NCBI GenBank assembly: GCA_946405435.1 | Contig: CAMJHF010000015.1 | Span: forward strand, 1-64,000 | DNA from: an uncultured Bacteroidales bacterium | GTDB taxonomy: Bacteria; Bacteroidota; Bacteroidia; Bacteroidales; UBA932 | Length of the DNA stretch: 64,000 nt | Direction: 5' to 3' | Part shown: positions 7,716-54,678 of the stretch, in pieces | How the letters are laid out: every line of letters begins with the position of its first letter | How positions within the stretch are numbered: position 1 is the first letter of the stretch | Translations under genes and position numbers: made by a program | The notes under the pieces: generated by a model | Database searches by the model: none | The model's input: the letters and a program-made list of their open reading frames with translations, nothing else | What the model was told of the DNA's origin: nothing

Positions 7716-8653
7716 TGAGACGATATATTTTTCTGCTGATAATGCTGCTGCCGGTGGTCTCGTGCAGCCAGATGATAGTGCCGGAGCCCGCAGGTGCCGA
7801 CAGGATACTGTGCCTTAATGCGAGACTCTATACGGCTGATACTTTGCATACTGTGTCGGCCTGCTACGGCTGCCGGACTGGCGTAGAGCCTGCACCGGGG
7901 ACCGTGGTGGTGTGTTTTGTGAACGGCGTCCGGGTGGATGAAGAGGTGGCCGACTCGCTCGGAGACGCGCAGCTCCGTGCCCGGATTGAGCCGGGCGATA
8001 CTGTATGCGTTACTGCGGATGCTCCGCTTGCGCCATACGTCAGCGCCAAAACGGTGGCTCCTCTCCCTCCTGTAATCGGGCATGCCGGTATAGCCTTGAT
8101 CGACGGATCTCACCAAGTATGCCTGCAAGTGGCGGACAATTCTCCCGAAGAGGATTATTTTGTCGTAAAACTCTACGAGGACGTCCTGATATATAACCAG
8201 GACGGCGGCGAAGTCGTGCTGCATGAAAGGACCGGGGCGCAGGTCCGGGGAGAACAAGGGCGTGTGTTCAGCGACCATGCCTTTGCGGGGGCGGCCAAGA
8301 CAATGAATATCAGTTGCGACAGTAACAGATATTCTTACTTGTACAAGCCCTATGGCTCTTATGATTATGAAGTTAGCGAGAAACAGCGGTTTGCGCTCGA
8401 GACGTCGATGCGCCTGCGTCTGTGCTCCCTGTGCGCCGAGGACTATTGGACGTCATTCCTGCTTTCCGGCGACACCTGGGACGGATTTGAGAATCCCCTG
8501 GACCAGATAGGCAGCGCCATGGTATATCCATGCAACGTCGACGGCGGCGCAGGCCTTGTGGCAGTGCGCAGTTGTGCGGAAGTAGTGCTCCCGTATGCAG
8601 AAGTCATCATGGACGGTTCAGGGCGCATGCTGTCCGACCGCTACTTGTTCTGA
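7715..8653 (+). CDS. DUF4249-like lipoprotein
   Basis: Lipobox LLPVVSCSQ; downstream partner position after a TonB receptor; overall layout typical of DUF4249. Confidence 0.7.
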   Translation: MRRYIFLLIMLLPVVSCSQMIVPEPAGADRILCLNARLYTADTLHTVSACYGCRTGVEPAPGTVVVCFVNGVRVDEEVADSLGDAQLRARIEPGDTVCVTADAPLAPYVSAKTVAPLPPVIGHAGIALIDGSHQVCLQVADNSPEEDYFVVKLYEDVLIYNQDGGEVVLHERTGAQVRGEQGRVFSDHAFAGAAKTMNISCDSNRYSYLYKPYGSYDYEVSEKQRFALETSMRLRLCSLCAEDYWTSFLLSGDTWDGFENPLDQIGSAMVYPCNVDGGAGLVAVRSCAEVVLPYAEVIMDGSGRMLSDRYLF

Positions 8654-10731
8654 AACACTTCAAAGAATTCCGGGAAACTCTTAGCCACGCAGGCAGTGTC
8701 GTCGATGTCTATGGGGCCGTCGGCGCCCAGTGAGGCGAGGGCGAGGGCCATGGCCATGCGATGGTCGTGGCGGGAGGTGTAGGCGCCGCCCTTGAGCAGC
8801 CGGCCGCTGAGCAGCCTGCTCGAGAGGCTTTCGCCCTGAACCACCAGTATGTCGCCGTCGGCATAGGTCTCCACGCCGGCCTGCCGGAGCATTTCTATGA
8901 TAGCCGCAGCGCGGTCGGACTCTTTGCCGGCAAGCCTTCCCAGGCCTGCGAGGCGGCTTTCGCCGGCGCAGAAGGCAGCCAGCACCGCCACCACGGGGAA
9001 GAGGTCCGGGGCGTGGTTGAGGTCGAAAGAGAAGGCGTCCAGGGGGGCCTTCCTCACGCAGACAGTGCCGTCCTCCATCTGCGAAACGATGGCTCCCGCC
9101 TCCACCAGCACGTCGATGATAGCTATGTCGGCCTGTATGGACTTCATGTCCAGGCCGTCTATCTCTATGCTGCCGAAAATTGCGCCTGCGGCGAGGAAAG
9201 CCGCCGCTGCGCTCCAGTCGGCCTCGATTCCCAGGTCGGCTGCCCTGTAGTGCTGGCCTCCGCGCACCTTGAAGTTTATGCCGGTGCAGGCGCTCCAGTC
9301 TTCTTCTTCGAGCATGCGGGCGTCACCCTCCATTTCGCTGCGGGTGCCGATGCCGAAGTGCTTTAGCACGTCGAGGGTTATGTACATGTAGGGGAGGCTC
9401 TTGGGGTTGCTGACATGCAGCTCGCTGTCTTTCGCACACATCGGGAGTGCCATGAGCAGGCCGGATATCAGCTGTGAGCCGCTTTCGCCGTTGACCTCGG
9501 CGTTGCCCGGGATAAGGCGTCCGCGTACGGTCAGGGGCACGTGTATCTGACGTCCGGAGCTTTCGTCCAGATTGCTGATGAGCACGCCGAAAGCGGCCAT
9601 TATGGACGCGGCTTCGTTCATGGGGCGCCGAGTCAGGGTGCCGTAGCCCTCGAGGGCGAACGGAGCGCCGTTTATAGCCGAGAGCACGGGGATGGAGAGA
9701 CGGGCCAGGAGTCCGGACTCGCCCACGTTGAGCAGTTCCAGGCCGAGGTCCTGGTCGGCCGGTCCTATTCCGGTTATAATGAGCGTGCTGCCGTCTTGCT
9801 GTACGTCGGCTCCGAGGGTGCGTGCCGCCTGAAGTGCTGCCTCGCTGTCTTCGCAGGGGGTGTAGTCGAAGAGGTGTGAAGTGCCCTCGGAGAGTGCCGC
9901 GGCGAGTATTGCCCGCTGGGCGAAGCTCTTGGAGGCCGGCATCCGGATAACTTTGCGGCGGAAAGGTTTGAGCTTGCCGTATAGGGTTTCGGCGAGCGCC
10001 GCGGCAACCGGCTGGCCGGGGGCGGTGGCCTCATCTTCGCTCAGGGCGGCATAGGTGAATGGAGCTCCACGCCTGAGGCACTCGGTGCGTGTGCTCCGGC
10101 CTTCTTCGCCCATGCCGAAGGCGATCAGGCGGCCCTGTAGGGAGTCTACGTTCTCCAGGATTATGCTGTACAGGGCCTCAATGCGTGCGGCGTCCTCCGG
10201 GGAGTGGCAGGTGGTGACTATCTTGGCTATGTCGGCGCCGTAGCGGAAGCATCTGGCAAGGGCGATCTGGAGGCCTTTTTCGTCGGGCGTGCCTTCAAAA
10301 TCGTGGTGCGAACGTATGAGGGAAGTGCCGCACTCCCGGCAGAGTTTCTGGAAGCGCCGGCTGAACTCGGCGGGGGCCTCGATTTCGAGGTCGGCGTAGC
10401 GGGCACCGGCCTGAACGGCGAGGGTCAGTTTCCGTTCCGCTTCGGCCCAGCCACAGGCTGGACCAAAGTTATCCCCCTGCACCCCCGGGGGACAAGGGGA
10501 GGGTTCCCCTTGAACCCCTCTGTCGCTGCGCTCCGAACTGCGGGCCGGTAAAGGTCCTGCCGCCTGCACCCGGCATGTAGCCACGAGAGGAATGTCGGTC
10601 TGGCTGAAAAGTTCTTCGATTTCGCTGTCGCCGAGCTTGCAGCTGTCGAGGCGTATCTCGGCCATCTCCAGCTGCGGCAGCAGCTCCATTATCTCATGGA
10701 AAGTCTTGTGTTGTAGGCTTGTGCAAATCAT
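8641..10731 (-). CDS. aroD-aroA: Fused type I 3-dehydroquinate dehydratase / 3-phosphoshikimate 1-carboxyvinyltransferase, with in-frame repeat insertion
   Basis: N-term AroD-like (RSHHDFEGTPDE, KIVTTCHSPEDAARI); C-term EPSPS (MPASKSFAQRAILAAAL, NVGESGLLARLSIPVL, ESDRAAAIIEMLRQAG). Confidence 0.9.
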   Translation of the reverse strand: MICTSLQHKTFHEIMELLPQLEMAEIRLDSCKLGDSEIEELFSQTDIPLVATCRVQAAGPLPARSSERSDRGVQGEPSPCPPGVQGDNFGPACGWAEAERKLTLAVQAGARYADLEIEAPAEFSRRFQKLCRECGTSLIRSHHDFEGTPDEKGLQIALARCFRYGADIAKIVTTCHSPEDAARIEALYSIILENVDSLQGRLIAFGMGEEGRSTRTECLRRGAPFTYAALSEDEATAPGQPVAAALAETLYGKLKPFRRKVIRMPASKSFAQRAILAAALSEGTSHLFDYTPCEDSEAALQAARTLGADVQQDGSTLIITGIGPADQDLGLELLNVGESGLLARLSIPVLSAINGAPFALEGYGTLTRRPMNEAASIMAAFGVLISNLDESSGRQIHVPLTVRGRLIPGNAEVNGESGSQLISGLLMALPMCAKDSELHVSNPKSLPYMYITLDVLKHFGIGTRSEMEGDARMLEEEDWSACTGINFKVRGGQHYRAADLGIEADWSAAAAFLAAGAIFGSIEIDGLDMKSIQADIAIIDVLVEAGAIVSQMEDGTVCVRKAPLDAFSFDLNHAPDLFPVVAVLAAFCAGESRLAGLGRLAGKESDRAAAIIEMLRQAGVETYADGDILVVQGESLSSRLLSGRLLKGGAYTSRHDHRMAMALALASLGADGPIDIDDTACVAKSFPEFFEVFQNK
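10440..10520 (-). repeat. In-frame palindromic repeat element inside aroD-aroA
   Basis: Coding strand GGGGTTCAAGGGGAACCCTCCCCTTGTCCCCCGGGGGTGCAGGGGGATAAC matches the copy at 53488-53538; followed by inverted repeat CTTTGGTCCAGCC-TGT-GGCTGGGCCGAAG. Confidence 0.85.
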
Positions 10732-10983: not shown

Positions 10984-11290
10984 CTCGCGCCCGCCGGGCG
11001 CTACTACGTAGACCCATCCCCAAACCCCTTCCCTCGGGGAAGGGACTTAGTCGGCGCAAGCGCCTCCGGAATCCGGCCATTGCGGCCGGGCCTTTTCGGG
11101 CCCGAGGCGGGACGCTGCTGTCGGCGCAGGTCCCAGGCCGAGTGCCGATACCGGTCCAGGGGCCTGTACCCCTATGGGCGAAATCGGCCATTTTTGCTTA
11201 TTGGGGTCCACGAAAGCTGCAGGGTATCGTCAATCAGCATCGCGTGCGTCTTTTTAAATGATTTCTACTTCTTACAATGTAGGCAGTTGT
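10984..11290. repeat. Dispersed GC-rich repeat, copy 1
   Basis: First 137 bp (10984-11120) match 15344-15480 base for base on reading; the rest (GATACCGGTCCA...GCAGGGTATCGTC...TTTTTAAATGATTTCTACT) is diverged but collinear. Confidence 0.9.
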
Positions 11291-15154: not shown

Positions 15155-15346
15155 TTACTGGGCAAAGCGCTTCGGATTCGGCAAATACTCATGCATTTCC
15201 CAAATCCGTTCAATTCCCTCCATCAAAAGGTTCGAGAATTGTCCCGTCAGGGGCACGAGTTTGACAAGAAGACGTCGGCATTTCATTGTTACTTCAGTGA
15301 TTTGCCGGCGTTGTTCGTTTATGGATGCGGCGTACCAGTCAAACTC
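15155..15346 (-). pseudogene. ORF remnant truncated at the border of the dispersed repeat
   Basis: Minus frame EFDWYAASINEQRRQITEVTMKCRRLLVKLVPLTGQFSNLLMEGIERIWEMHEYLPNPKRFAQ* has no start; upstream side is the repeat. Confidence 0.5.
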
Positions 15347-15655
15347 GCGCCCGCCGGGCGCTACTACGTAGACCCATCCCCAAACCCCTTCCCTCGGGGA
15401 AGGGACTTAGTCGGCGCAAGCGCCTCCGGAATCCGGCCATTGCGGCCGGGCCTTTTCGGGCCCGAGGCGGGACGCTGCTGCTGGCGCAGGTCCTTTCTGG
15501 CCGGCGCAGGTCCCAGCTGAGTGACGGTACCGGTCCAAGGGCCTGTACCCCTACGTGCGAATACGGCCGTTTTTGCTTACATGGGTCCACTCAAACAGCA
15601 GGGTATCGTCACCCAACCTCGCGCGTCTTTTTAAATGATTTCTACTACTTACAAA
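15344..15655. repeat. Dispersed GC-rich repeat, copy 2
   Basis: 15344-15480 matches 10984-11120 base for base on reading; collinear diverged tail. Confidence 0.9.
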
Positions 15656-17457: not shown

Positions 17458-17668
17458 TGTTTGGTTATTTTTTGCAAAGATACATAAATTATTTGCTCAT
17501 ATTGATTTGTGTTGGACGTGAAAATGAATTTTTTGTGAAGGGCGCGCGATTGGGTACGCGGAAGTTGTCTCCTCAGAAAAACCAACTGGGGAGAAAATGG
17601 ATTTTTGCGGTATAATTGACTCGACTGGTTTGATTGCTCCACCCAAGAAAAGAGCCGGGCGCCTCGTG

Positions 17669-18003
17669 GACAGAAATCGGCAAAAAATGTCCCGGCGGGG
17701 TGTTTTTTGGGGCAGCTGGGACAGAAATCGGCAGAAACTGTCCCGGCGGAGTGTTTTTGGGGGCATCTGGGACAGAAATCGGCAGAAACTGTCCCGGAGG
17801 AGTGCTTTTGGGAGCCTTGGGGACAGAAATCGGCAGAAATTGTCCTGGCGGAGTGTTTTTGGGAGCCACTTGGACAGAAATCGGCAAAAACTGTCCCGGC
17901 GGGGTGCTTTTGGGTGTCGCTGGTACAGAAATCGGCAAAAATTGTCTCGGCGTGGTGTTTTTTGGGGCAGCTGGGACAGAAATCGGCAAAAACTGTCCCG
18001 GAG
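17669..18003. repeat. 51-bp tandem array, about 6.5 units
   Basis: Units start at 17669, 17720, 17771, 17822, 17873, 17924, 17975 (exact 51-bp spacing); GGGACAG-N13-CTGTCCC stem-loop at unit junctions. Confidence 0.95.
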
Positions 18004-18043
18004 AAGGCGAATTCCTGTGTTATCGGCTGTTCTATGGCAGTTA

Positions 18044-18802
18044 TTACCCCATAACCACGTCCAGCACCATCATGAGCGCGAAGCCAAGGGCGAAGCCGAC
18101 GGTGGCGATGTTGGAGTGCTCGCCCTGCGAGGCTTCCGGAATCAGCTCTTCCACAATGACATAGAGCATGGCTCCGGCGGCGAAGGCCAGAAGGACCGGC
18201 ATCATTGGAGTGACTACGGACGCAAGAAGCAGGACCAGCACTGCGCCCAGAGGCTCCACAATGCCGCTCAGCGCACCTATGGCAAAGGACTTCCACCGGC
18301 TGTTGCCGGCTCCGCGCAGCGGCATGGAGATGATGGCCCCTTCGGGGACGTTCTGTATGGCGATGCCCACCGACAGCGCAAGGGCTCCGGCAATCGACAT
18401 TCCGCCGCCTCCTGCAATGGCTCCCGCCACTGCCACGCCCACGGCCATTCCTTCCGGGAAGTTGTGAAGGGTGACGGCCAGGGCCAGCATCGCTGTCCTG
18501 GAAAGCTTGCTCCGCGGCCCTTCAGGGCCGCCCATGGGGTGGATATGCGGTATTACCTGGTCCAGCATAAGCAGGAAGGCAAAGCCGCCCAGCAGGCCGC
18601 CTGTGACCTGCCAGATGCTTCCCATCTCCATGCCCGGAATGAGCAGCGACCATACGGATGCCGCCACCATGACTCCCGAAGCAAAACCCAGAAGGACTTT
18701 CTGAAGCCAGGCGGGCATGTCCCTTTTCATGAAAAATACGAAGCCACTTCCCAGGGCGGTCCCCAGGAACGGTACCAGCAATGCAACTATAACTGAACTC
18801 AT
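18044..18802 (-). CDS. ZIP-family metal transporter
   Basis: Polytopic; LHNFPEGMAVGVAVAGAIAGGG and AIQNVPEGAIISMPLRGAG ZIP motifs. Confidence 0.88.
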   Translation of the reverse strand: MSSVIVALLVPFLGTALGSGFVFFMKRDMPAWLQKVLLGFASGVMVAASVWSLLIPGMEMGSIWQVTGGLLGGFAFLLMLDQVIPHIHPMGGPEGPRSKLSRTAMLALAVTLHNFPEGMAVGVAVAGAIAGGGGMSIAGALALSVGIAIQNVPEGAIISMPLRGAGNSRWKSFAIGALSGIVEPLGAVLVLLLASVVTPMMPVLLAFAAGAMLYVIVEELIPEASQGEHSNIATVGFALGFALMMVLDVVMG

Positions 18803-21401: not shown

Positions 21402-22241
21402 ATGTCTAAAGTAATTTTGATTACCGGTGGAAGTTCCGGTATAGGATACGAAGCGGCGCTGATGCTGGCGGCCAAGGGGCACACCGTTTACGCCGCAGCC
21501 CGAAGGGCCGACAAGCTTGAGCCGCTGGGGGAGCATGGAATAAAGACGCTCCTTCTGGACGTCAACGATGAAAAGTCTGCCCAAAGTTGCGTGCAGTCGG
21601 TGCTGGACGCCGAGGGACGCATAGACGTGCTGGTGAACAATGCCGGGTACGGCTACTTCGGACCGGTTGAGTGCGTGCCTCTCGAAGAAGCCCGCAGGCA
21701 GATGGAAACCAATGTGTTCGGTCTTTCTACCATGTGCCGTCTGGTCATTCCGCACATGCGCAGCCAGGGCAGCGGACGCATAATCAACATATCTTCGCTG
21801 GCAGGCCAGAGCTGCTTCCTTTACGGCGGATGGTATCACGTGTCCAAGTACTCCGTTGAGGCGCTCAGCGACTCGCTCCGCATAGAACTCAAGCCCTTCG
21901 GGATAGATGTGGTGAAGATAGAGCCCGGCGGCATACGTACCCAGTGGGGGCACATCGCCGGCGACCATCTGAAAGAGTGCACCGAGGGCAGCGTGTATGA
22001 GCCGTCGGCCGCAAAAGAAGCGGCGCTCCTGCACTACGGATATTCGTCGAATTATCTTACGTCGCCCACCGTAGTTGCCCGGGCCATTACCCGCGCTGCC
22101 GTCAACCGCCGCCCCCGCGTGCGTTACCGTGTCGGGCTCGGGGCCAAGTCCCTGGCCTTTCTGCACACGGTCCTGCCGGACCTCTGGTGGGACGCCGGCA
22201 TGCGGCTCCTCGGCGGGCCGCTTCGCACCCCAACCGCCTAG
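21402..22241 (+). CDS. Short-chain dehydrogenase/reductase
   Basis: ITGGSSGIGYEAA, NNAGYGYFGP, YHVSKYSVEALSDSLR. Confidence 0.92.
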   Translation: MSKVILITGGSSGIGYEAALMLAAKGHTVYAAARRADKLEPLGEHGIKTLLLDVNDEKSAQSCVQSVLDAEGRIDVLVNNAGYGYFGPVECVPLEEARRQMETNVFGLSTMCRLVIPHMRSQGSGRIINISSLAGQSCFLYGGWYHVSKYSVEALSDSLRIELKPFGIDVVKIEPGGIRTQWGHIAGDHLKECTEGSVYEPSAAKEAALLHYGYSSNYLTSPTVVARAITRAAVNRRPRVRYRVGLGAKSLAFLHTVLPDLWWDAGMRLLGGPLRTPTA

Positions 22242-22291
22242 CATCCCCTCACCTCCCGCCCCGTCCCGTCCCGTCCCGACATCCGAACCCA

Positions 22292-22663
22292 TAAAGCTCT
22301 GCGACCTTCCCCCTGGCCCAGAAGCACCAATCCTGGGCCCGCAGGCACACGAACTCCACCGTCCTGGCCCAGAAACGCCAATCTCGGGCCCGCAAGTGCA
22401 CCAACGCCATCGTTCTGGCCCGAAAACACCAATCTCGGGCCCACAAGCGCACCAACGCCACCGTCCTGGCCCGAAAACGCCGATCTCGGGCCCGCAAGCG
22501 CACCAACGCCACCGTTCTGGCCCAGAAACGTCAATCTCGGGCCCACAAGCGCACAAACGCCATAGTCCTGGCCCGGAAAGGCGGCGTTTCGTCACAAGTT
22601 TACGATTCTTTCGAAAGAATCAGCAAAACCTGCGCTCTGCCATTGGAAGGAAGCGCTCATTTT
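22292..22663. repeat. Module copy 1: 51-bp tandem array plus conserved tail
   Basis: CTGGCCC unit starts at 22313, 22364, 22415, 22466, 22517, 22568; tail GGCGGCGTTTCGTCACAAGTTTACGATTCTTTCGAAAGAATCAGC...CTGCGCTCTGCCATTGGA. Confidence 0.95.
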
Positions 22664-22715
22664 CATAGTTTTGCGGAAACCACCCTTTACAAACTTTAGG
22701 AGGATTTTTTTACTT

Positions 22716-23597
22716 ATGGAGGCCTTAGAAATTGTAAACATTGAAGCTCGAATATACTCCTTTCGAGACACCTATGTGATGATAGATAGGGACCTTGCCG
22801 AATTATATGGTGTTGAAACAAAAGTCCTTAACCAGGCCGTAAAAAGAAATATCGACCGTTTTCCAGAGTCTTTTCGCTTCGGTCTTTCAAAACTGGAGAC
22901 TCACGAACTGGTCACAAATTGTGACCGGTTCAATAACTTGAAACACTCTTCATCTTTACCATATGCATTTACAGAGCCTGGTGTCGCTATGCTTTCGGCC
23001 GTTCTTCATAGCCCAGCAGCTGTGAGTGTCAGTGTGAGAATTATGCAGGCATTCGTCGCAATGCGCCGATTTATGCTGGCAAACGCTCAAGTCTTCCAAC
23101 GGTTGGACAGATTGGAAGTTCGCCAGTTGGAGACCGACCAGAAGATTGATCGGGTTTTTGCCTGGCTGGACAGCCGAAAAGAAGAGAATAAGCAGTGCGT
23201 GTTTTTCGACGGCCAGATATATGATGCATACGAGTTCGTCTGCAAGCTGATAAAAAGCGCCGAAAAGCGCATTATTCTGATTGACAACTATGTAGATGAT
23301 ACAGTCCTGACGATGCTTGACAAGCGTAATGAAGGGATTGAGGCCTCTCTTTACACACAGAAGGTTGGAGAAGAATTCAAACTGGATCTCGCAAAGCACG
23401 ACGCTCAATACAGCGCTATCCCAGTCTTTATATTCAAGAAGTCTCACGACCGATTCCTAATTATCGATGAGAAGGTATATCACGTCGGAGCTTCGCTCAA
23501 GGACCTCAGGAAGAAGTGGTTTGCCGTTTCCTTTATGGAGGCGCAGGATGCCAGCGCCATCGCCGCCCGCATTGAAGCCGAAGCCGTAAGGCTCTGA
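22716..23597 (+). CDS. ORF6N-domain protein with PLD-like C-terminal domain
   Basis: IEARIYSFRDTYVMIDRDLAELYGVETKVLNQAVKRNIDRFPESFRFGLS; C-term KRIILIDNYVDDTVLTML...SHDRFLIIDEKVYHVGASLKDLRKKWFA (HxRx4D). Confidence 0.85.
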   Translation: MEALEIVNIEARIYSFRDTYVMIDRDLAELYGVETKVLNQAVKRNIDRFPESFRFGLSKLETHELVTNCDRFNNLKHSSSLPYAFTEPGVAMLSAVLHSPAAVSVSVRIMQAFVAMRRFMLANAQVFQRLDRLEVRQLETDQKIDRVFAWLDSRKEENKQCVFFDGQIYDAYEFVCKLIKSAEKRIILIDNYVDDTVLTMLDKRNEGIEASLYTQKVGEEFKLDLAKHDAQYSAIPVFIFKKSHDRFLIIDEKVYHVGASLKDLRKKWFAVSFMEAQDASAIAARIEAEAVRL

Positions 23598-23880
23598 GAC
23601 CTTCACCCTGGCCCGAAAATGCCAATCTCGGGCCCGCAAGCGCACCAACGCCACCGTCCGGGCCCGAAAACGCCAATCTTGGGCCCGAAAGCGCACGAAT
23701 ACCGCCGTCTGGGCCCAGAAACGCCAATCTCGGGCCCGCAAGCGCACGAATGCCGCCCTCGGGGCCCGGAAACACCGATCTTGGGCCCGGAAAGGCGGCG
23801 TTTCGTGACAGGTTTACGATTCTTTCGAAGGAATCAGCGGACCTGCGCTCTGCCATTGGAGGGATGCGCTCCTTCCTTTA
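23588..23880. repeat. Module copy 2: 51-bp tandem array plus conserved tail
   Basis: Units start at 23608, 23659, 23710, 23761; tail GGCGGCGTTTCGTGACAGGTTTACGATTCTTTCGAAGGAATCAGC...CTGCGCTCTGCCATTGGA. Confidence 0.95.
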
Positions 23881-52974: not shown

Positions 52975-53937
52975 ATGATTGAATTTCCCGACACATCTTG
53001 GAAAGATTATGAGCTGCTGGACAGCGGCAATGGAGAAAAGTTGGAGCGTTTTGGAGCCTATGTGCTGTGGCGTCCCGAACCGAAGGCGCTTTGGGACAGG
53101 AGTCTCCCGCTGACGGAGTGGAACCGCCTTGCCCATACGCGCTTCAAACCCGGGGCCGGTTTCGGCAAGGCCGGCAAGGAAGACAGCGGCACCTGGGAGC
53201 GTCTCCACAAGATGGACGACCAGTGGTGGATACGCTATAATGCCTTTAACCTTCGCCTCGGACTTACGAGCTTCAAGCACGTCGGGGTGTTTCCCGAGCA
53301 GGCGCCCAACTGGGAGTTTATCAGCCGGAAGTGCGCTGGCATGGATCATCCCAAAGTGCTGAATCTCTTTGCCTACACCGGTGCCGCGTCGCTCGCCGCC
53401 CTGGCCGGAGGAGCGGAGGTCACACACCTTGATTCGGTGAAGCAGGTCGTCACCTGGGCCCGCCAGAATCTCGAACGTTCTTTTTCAGGGGGTGTCGGGG
53501 GGAACGCCCCCCGTCCCCTGGGGGTGCAGGGGGATAATAGTCGTCTTCGACAACCCGGTGGCGTATGCCGTTGGGTTGTCGAAGACGCCATGAAGTTCGC
53601 GCGCAGGGAGGCCCGCCGCGGCAATCTCTACGACGGCATCATCCTGGACCCTCCGGCCTACGGTCACGGACCCGACGGCGAGAAGTGGAAGCTCGACGAA
53701 TGCCTATTCGACATGCTTCGCACGGTGGCATCCATCCTCAAGCCTCAGAATTCCTTCGTGGTGTTGAATCTCTATTCCAACGGCTACAGCGCCGCCCTGG
53801 GCGAAACCCTCGTCCGCGAGGCCTTCGGAATTAAAGCAGGTTCTCCTGATGTGACCCTCACATCAGGGGAACTTGCACTGAACGACAGCTTCGGAAAGGT
53901 CCTGCCGCTGTCCATAGTCGTCAGACTCGAAAAATAA
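52975..53937 (+). CDS. Class I SAM-dependent methyltransferase (RlmI-like) with in-frame repeat insertion
   Basis: [41 protein letters not shown]...[40 protein letters not shown]. Confidence 0.9.
53488..53587 (+). repeat. In-frame palindromic repeat element inside the methyltransferase gene
   Basis: GGGGGTGTCGGGGGGAACGCCCCCCGTCCCCTGGGGGTGCAGGGGGATAAT then CGTCTTCGACAACCC...GGGTTGTCGAAGACG (perfect 15-bp inverted repeat). Confidence 0.88.
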
Positions 53938-54028
53938 TCCGATCTCTCTGGCCTACACCATATCCAAGGGTAGCCTGCCAGAAATACTTTTCTCTTTGTT
54001 CAACGAAGAGCGCTTTCACTCTCTTTCC

Positions 54029-54332
54029 GTCGTTTGCGGTCCATCCGCCGGCACCCCAGACGCCGTTTTTGCATGTTTTCGTCGTTTGAGGTCCATTTGC
54101 CAGCACCCCAGACGCCGTTTTCTCGTCTTTTCGTCGTTTGCGGTCCATCCGCCAGCACCCCAGACGCCGTTTTTGCGTGTTTCCGTCGTTTGCGGTCCAT
54201 CCGCCGGCACCCCAGACGCCGTTTTCTCGTGTTTCCGTCGTTTGCGGTACATCCTCCGGCACCCCAGACGCCGTTTTTGCGTGTTTTCGTCGTTTGGGGT
54301 CCATTTGCCAGCACCCCAAGAGACGGTGGTGC
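54029..54332. repeat. 52-bp tandem array, about 5.5 units
   Basis: GTCGTTTG unit starts at 54029, 54081, 54133, 54185, 54237, 54289. Confidence 0.95.
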
Positions 54333-54474
54333 GTAGTTTGAAGGCCGGCGGAGGGGGATGTTTCGGAAAAATGTGCCACCCTCGGCACCATAAGAGGGAG
54401 GGGTCCGCAAGCAGGTATGAGCGTAGCGACTTTTTCCGGAGCATCCCCCACTTTCGACCGAATTTGTCAAAGAA

Positions 54475-54678
54475 GGCAGGAAAAAGCCGAAAACCTGTCA
54501 GGATGTGACACCAGACACTCTTTCTGGCAGGAAAAAGCCGAAAACCTGTCCGGACGTGGTACCAGGCGCTCTTTCTGGCAGGAAAAAGCCGAAAATCTGT
54601 CCGGAGGTGGCAGCGGGCGCTCTTTGTGGCAGAGAAATGCAAAAAACCTGTCCGCAGGCAGCAAACAATGGCTGAACG
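54475..54678. repeat. 51-bp tandem array, about 4 units
   Basis: GGCAGGAAAAAGCCGAAAACCTGTCC unit starts at 54475, 54526, 54577, with a degenerate unit at 54628. Confidence 0.92.

Follow-up and report, generated by a model that had tools for sequence, protein, structure and literature searches.

The best-known selfish palindromes that interrupt protein genes in frame are those of Rickettsia and related bacteria, and group IIC introns and some insertion sequences insert beside terminator stem-loops. The Rickettsia palindromic elements (RPEs) are short, palindromic and dispersed, are found in frame in functional-looking protein genes and terminate in CGTC (PMC3733652). The GTAG-tagged palindromes of the REP/RAYT systems have the GTAG motif beside a hairpin and occur in intergenic and intragenic copies. 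In quasipalindrome template switching, studied in E. coli (PMC7202029), and in fold-back priming, perfect inverted repeats arise when a 3' end turns back on its own strand and uses it as template; the available parts of these reports (PMC7202029, PMC10622511) make no link to a dispersed bacterial element. Template-switch concerted evolution has been proposed for the coding palindromes of Nematomorpha mitochondria, which are perfect inverted repeats in coding sequence with two-sided changes between individuals; a mobile repeat beside the palindrome is not mentioned in the part of that source available (PMC6649704).

The window analysed in the present study is a stretch of 64,000 nucleotides from an uncultured Bacteroidales bacterium (contig CAMJHF010000015.1), and it contains two copies of an element composed of a chain of GC-rich hairpins, about 50–130 bp long, with no space for a gene. 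The 3' end of the element is constant (GGGGGTGCAGGGGGATNGTAG) and the 5' end is variable. Counting from the 5' side, the chain comprises an optional hairpin H1 (GGAGCGNAGCGAC), a hairpin H2, the arms of which vary yet pair (CGGGGG/CCCCCG, CAAGGGG/CCCCTTG, CTGAGGGG/CCCCTCAG and others), and a hairpin H3 (TCCCCTG..CAGGGGGA), followed by the terminal GATNGTAG; the alignment shows little formal covariation, with two covarying pairs. No terminal inverted repeat, which in a MITE would match a resident transposon, is apparent in the element. The features of the two copies are as follows:

52975..53937, + strand: open reading frame (320 aa) of an RlmI/RlmL-like SAM-dependent methyltransferase carrying the element
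53487..53540, + strand: element (covariance model match), short form without H1, AGGGGGTG, hairpins H2 and H3, then GGATAATAG
53496..53513, + strand: internal hairpin H2, CGGGGGG-AACG-CCCCCCG
53514..53534, + strand: hairpin H3, TCCCCTG-GGGGTG-CAGGGGGA
53520-53535, + strand: 3' core GGGGGTGCAGGGGGAT, 16 nt
53540..53551, + strand: small hairpin s1, GTCG-TCTT-CGAC, after TAG; many copies have similar small hairpins
53542..53556, + strand: near (L) arm CGTCTTCGACAACCC, an inverted copy of the downstream host sequence
53573..53587, + strand: far (R) arm GGGTTGTCGAAGACG, which encodes the conserved host residues (R)WVVED and is the perfect complement of the L arm
10469..10534, − strand: first copy, a long form that includes H1 (GGAGCGCAGCGAC) and lies in frame within the open reading frame 8641-10731
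10444..10464, − strand: hairpin at the 3' junction of that copy, GGTCCAGCC-tgt-GGCTGGGCC, with a single mismatch

The sequence quoted in the preliminary description is present exactly at 53487-53538, and its placement there as a second in-frame copy of the window, within a methyltransferase gene, was borne out. The covariance model matched this copy at 53472-53540 (E 3.9e-15); the 16-nt core has two matches in the window (10471-10486, −; 53520-53535, +; 0.03 expected), and a 31-nt probe with 3 mismatches allowed has one match versus 0.00 expected from shuffles. The reading frame is open throughout, with the LDPPAYG motif in frame downstream of the insert, as had been claimed; the methyltransferase looks functional, and the intact frame speaks against a pseudogene. 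The loops of orthologues are not unrelated ones of equal length: 24 element-free genus-mates have at this position ERS-GLDG(I/V)-RW or a sequence close to it. The estimate of 25–30 added residues needs correction: 29 residues replace about 5 native ones, and the net gain is 24 aa (72 nt). The interval first given, 53488-53587, has its end at the far end of a host-complementary hairpin, in which 53542-53556 pairs with 53573-53587 and which had gone undescribed. The observation is thus confirmed and is of greater interest than its first description suggested.

The host protein matches Pfam PF10672 (33.3 bits, cut-off 27), which is in keeping with an RlmI/RlmL-like enzyme, but it lies far under the cut-off of the RlmI equivalog, the 23S rRNA m5C1962 methyltransferase (26.5 versus 712 bits). 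In Rossmann methyltransferases, the turn that leads from helix B to strand 3 faces away from SAM. In 2IGT, the closest solved structure by sequence, the helix and the strand bearing WICEDAMKF are separated by a short turn only, and alignment to 2IGT positions the insert between the helix ending in WARQNLE and the next strand; from this alignment we infer that the insert forms an extra translated loop at this helix B–strand 3 turn, on the non-SAM side. An AlphaFold model of the loop, made from five sequences, was too poor for use (mean pLDDT 48). The same site is occupied in three further MAG contigs, by the element in L084 and L099 and by a decayed remnant in L081; the tree of these insertions is too weak to tell one event from several. 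A second variable loop of the methyltransferase, after QWWI.Y, holds inserts that differ by species (L041, L042, L043, L081, L084), and the insert is element-like in L042 (SERSDSGGFGGNAPR) and L084.

The exact 16-nt core occurs 18 times in the whole genome, versus none for a reversed control pattern, and with at most one mismatch it was found in 39 of the 151 genomes of the genus. A longer pattern retrieved 84 matching stretches from the genome collection, all titled Bacteroidales or Bacteroidia and many originating from the rumen. At the order level (295 genomes, 183 genera), the genome under study was the sole match of the covariance model; at the family level (119 genomes), a search with strict filters, which may miss weak copies, matched this genome, one genus-mate and, in diverged form, one genome of a sister genus. 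Altogether, 164 distinct copies were collected. The element is a mobile family dispersed in one genus, with hardly any copies outside it. Among 2.9 million viral contigs, one chance-like match was found (L164); no Rfam family came near its gathering score, and the literature searched contained no description of such elements. Apparently, this is an undescribed family of a gut genus, with about 160 copies available for study. At the contig ends L004 and L014, the element and a terminator form a 102-bp tandem unit, which is probably the cause of the contig breaks.

The comparison with RPEs indicates another sequence and another taxon. The CGTC tag is absent: the consensus has GATAGTAG at the 3' end and GGAGCGNAGCGAC on the 5' side, and the element ends in GATNGTAG. 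Like RPEs, the element is a dispersed palindromic repeat that has inserted in frame in genes; it resembles them in its effect on genes without being a member of that family. The available part of PMC3733652 mentions no inverted arm of host sequence at the 3' junction of RPEs. The consensus also contains a nearly invariant GTAG, followed by a locus-specific palindrome.

All collected copies were found via the 3' core, and the constancy of the 3' end could be an artefact of this ascertainment. Pure ascertainment is countered by a search seeded with the 5' hairpin H1 in four genomes, where the coordinates of 13 of the 14 matches place the core at the distance expected; conversely, H1 is retained at 8 of the 18 exact cores of the genome under study. 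A kept 3' end combined with variable 5' ends suggests copying that begins at the 3' end. In this respect, and in insertion at terminator stem-loops, the element is similar to group IIC introns, but here neither a ribozyme nor a reverse transcriptase was found, the near arm would be newly copied, and copies in genes appear to be translated in frame.

Most copies adjoin a locus-specific hairpin, the far arm of which is host sequence and the near arm its inverted copy. The longest perfect inverted repeat within 90 nt downstream of the core has a mean length of 11.9 nt, versus 5.3 nt in windows drawn at random from these loci; arms of at least 11 bp were found in 53% of 120 copies and in 0 of 540 controls, and a perfect arm of at least 8 bp is lacking in about 30% of copies. 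This junction points to fold-back copying. The reading preferred here, to which we assign a probability of roughly 0.5, is that of a selfish, non-autonomous palindromic element whose insertion proceeds by fold-back (snap-back) synthesis primed at the 3' end of a hairpin. A strand with its 3' end inside a hairpin, be it the stem of a terminator or a weak palindrome arisen by chance, would fold back and copy itself; the product would be the perfect L arm and, at times, a further small fold-back (s1). Synthesis would then switch to a copy of the element, entering at its 3' end, proceed a variable distance toward the 5' end and return to the locus, duplicating the left arm in some cases and not in others. 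Of the insertions in genes, only those in frame would survive, the insert being translated as an extra loop, and template switching between the arms may later keep them matched. On this reading, the junction sequences record the route as mirror-image copies of host DNA, even into tRNA genes.

The copies near tRNA genes bear most directly on the origin of the near arm. A tRNA gene lies within 130 nt on the 3' side of 37 of the 164 copies, in all 37 with its 3' end facing the element, and in 23 of them the stem enters the tRNA gene, by up to 18 tRNA nucleotides; on the 5' side, one tRNA was found in all, and none in the mirror orientation. At intergenic copies without a tRNA, no orientation bias was detected (24 versus 22). 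Such positions at tRNA 3' ends would also be expected if the element inserts beside pre-existing long hairpins such as terminators, with an L arm that is native or a target-site duplication. The left arm is moreover duplicated upstream of the element in L018, L015, L006 and L272, as if the element had entered a pre-existing hairpin in these loci. However, at nine of the element-free tRNA-His sites examined (L308, L309, L314-L317, L321-L323) the extended arm is missing, and ordinary terminator stems end 2–16 nt before the GGTGC closing the tRNA. The element-bearing sites pair into the tRNA gene, with the stem end at +9 in L307 and +5 in L324, and in L320 and L311 the stretch CCCCACATCGCAC is the complement of the tRNA end. 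Since the stems are short at these element-free sites and extended at element-bearing ones, the simplest reading is that the arm is new DNA, with the host strand as its template. Element-free orthologues of the methyltransferase likewise have no L arm, and in atpB the arm is present beside the element in L065 and L078 and missing in the element-free L148. Insertion beside pre-existing hairpins is weakened by these comparisons and is rather improbable.

The nine sites do not include L312, which is cut by a contig end, or L318, L319 and L325. Diverged element-like sequence without the core is present at L318 and L319, and the L318 stem reaches +4. The tRNA-His site L325 (G043) has an extended tRNA-complementary arm and no element core; this arm is possibly a scar of element loss or decay.

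Several genes have a site that is occupied in more than one species, and the arms may, consequently, have become matched after insertion and not at it. Ordinary insertion could be followed by stalling of replication at the stable element, with quasipalindrome template switching then perfecting adjacent imperfect repeats, a form of concerted evolution. Same-site insertions in different species are matched yet different, as this would predict: the differences are two-sided, affecting both arms, at 56 positions and one-sided at 32, counts that are descriptive, the positions having been picked by pairing and the species pairs being non-independent. In the pair L130/L151, the flanks of which are closely similar, two-sided transversions occur in both s1 and the L:R stem. 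Taken alone, later template switching gives no account of stems entering tRNA genes or of the strict tRNA polarity, and it is a rather improbable source of the junction as a whole. Either repeated insertion at hot spots produced the matched arms anew, or template switching maintained them. One gene site holds elements in five loci (L261, L272, L248, L055 and L015); in L261 and L272, a later copy sits within the hairpin left by an earlier one.

Through-ORFs, continuing at least 50 codons past both sides, contain 41 of 125 copies, and one codon register dominates in them, in 17 of 22 sense and 16 of 19 antisense copies. Compared with element-free orthologues, eight insertions are in frame and one, L160, which is maybe outside a gene, is out of frame. 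Since genic copies hold one codon register, they are probably translated rather than spliced, and the pattern of register and frame fits translation under selection against frameshifts. The conserved chain of hairpins and the two-sided arm changes would also suit a segment removed from mRNA or bypassed by the ribosome (an intron or bypass element), the L:R stem marking its boundary. Removal from RNA is unlikely because genic insertions preserve frame and register, which removal would not demand; many copies are intergenic or antisense, and the Rfam search gave no family match, which makes this explanation very improbable. Adaptive protein loops retained by selection could account for the filling of the same sites in several species, but 109 of the 164 copies lie outside through-ORFs and the methyltransferase site of L081 holds a decayed remnant; this reading is hardly credible. 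The insertions show one way for proteins to gain loops.

Partner enzymes were sought among reverse transcriptases and transposases. RVT_1 was unmatched in 10 of 12 element-bearing genomes, several of them incomplete, and did not track copy number; a reverse transcriptase partner was rejected, there being no correlation with the element. The genus has RAYT genes; each genome contains several tyrosine transposase genes of the RAYT type, and those at L215, L217, L220, L223, L229 and L233 are flanked by palindromes of their own. A RAYT/Y1 transposase was also rejected as a partner: there are several gene copies per genome, flanked by other repeats where read, they do not track element copy number, and they are absent from the element-bearing genomes G130 and G057 at the threshold used. 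The core was found in the stretch fetched at 4 of 20 Y1 loci, and the flanks read at six of these loci contained other palindromes, one with an element copy about 270 bp away. In REP/RAYT systems, the GTAG tag is followed by a conserved palindrome; here, the hairpin after GTAG differs at every locus.

Perhaps a mode of mobility exists in which hairpin 3' ends, at tRNA terminators or chance palindromes, self-prime, copy the host strand and jump onto the element; each insertion would then bear an inverted copy of its target, possibly with no dedicated transposase. This broader proposal is advanced tentatively. The junctions make fold-back synthesis, as a proposed route of spread without an obvious transposase, testable.

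The reading frame holding the first copy in the window encodes 696 aa and is, by sequence recognition alone, presumably an aroD-aroA fusion. The window contains further repeats. Tandem arrays with periods of 51–52 bp are located at 17606-18057, 22232-23792, 53972-54386 and 54475-54654, the last two directly downstream of the methyltransferase gene. A second repeat (AAAAATGTGCCACCCTCGGCA...) occurs at 54363-54440 and in L003 and L009; the element lies inside the L003 and L009 copies and not inside that of the window, which represents an internal empty site. A direct repeat of 150 bp, 99% identical, is present at 10984-11133 and 15344-15493, 4.4 kb apart.
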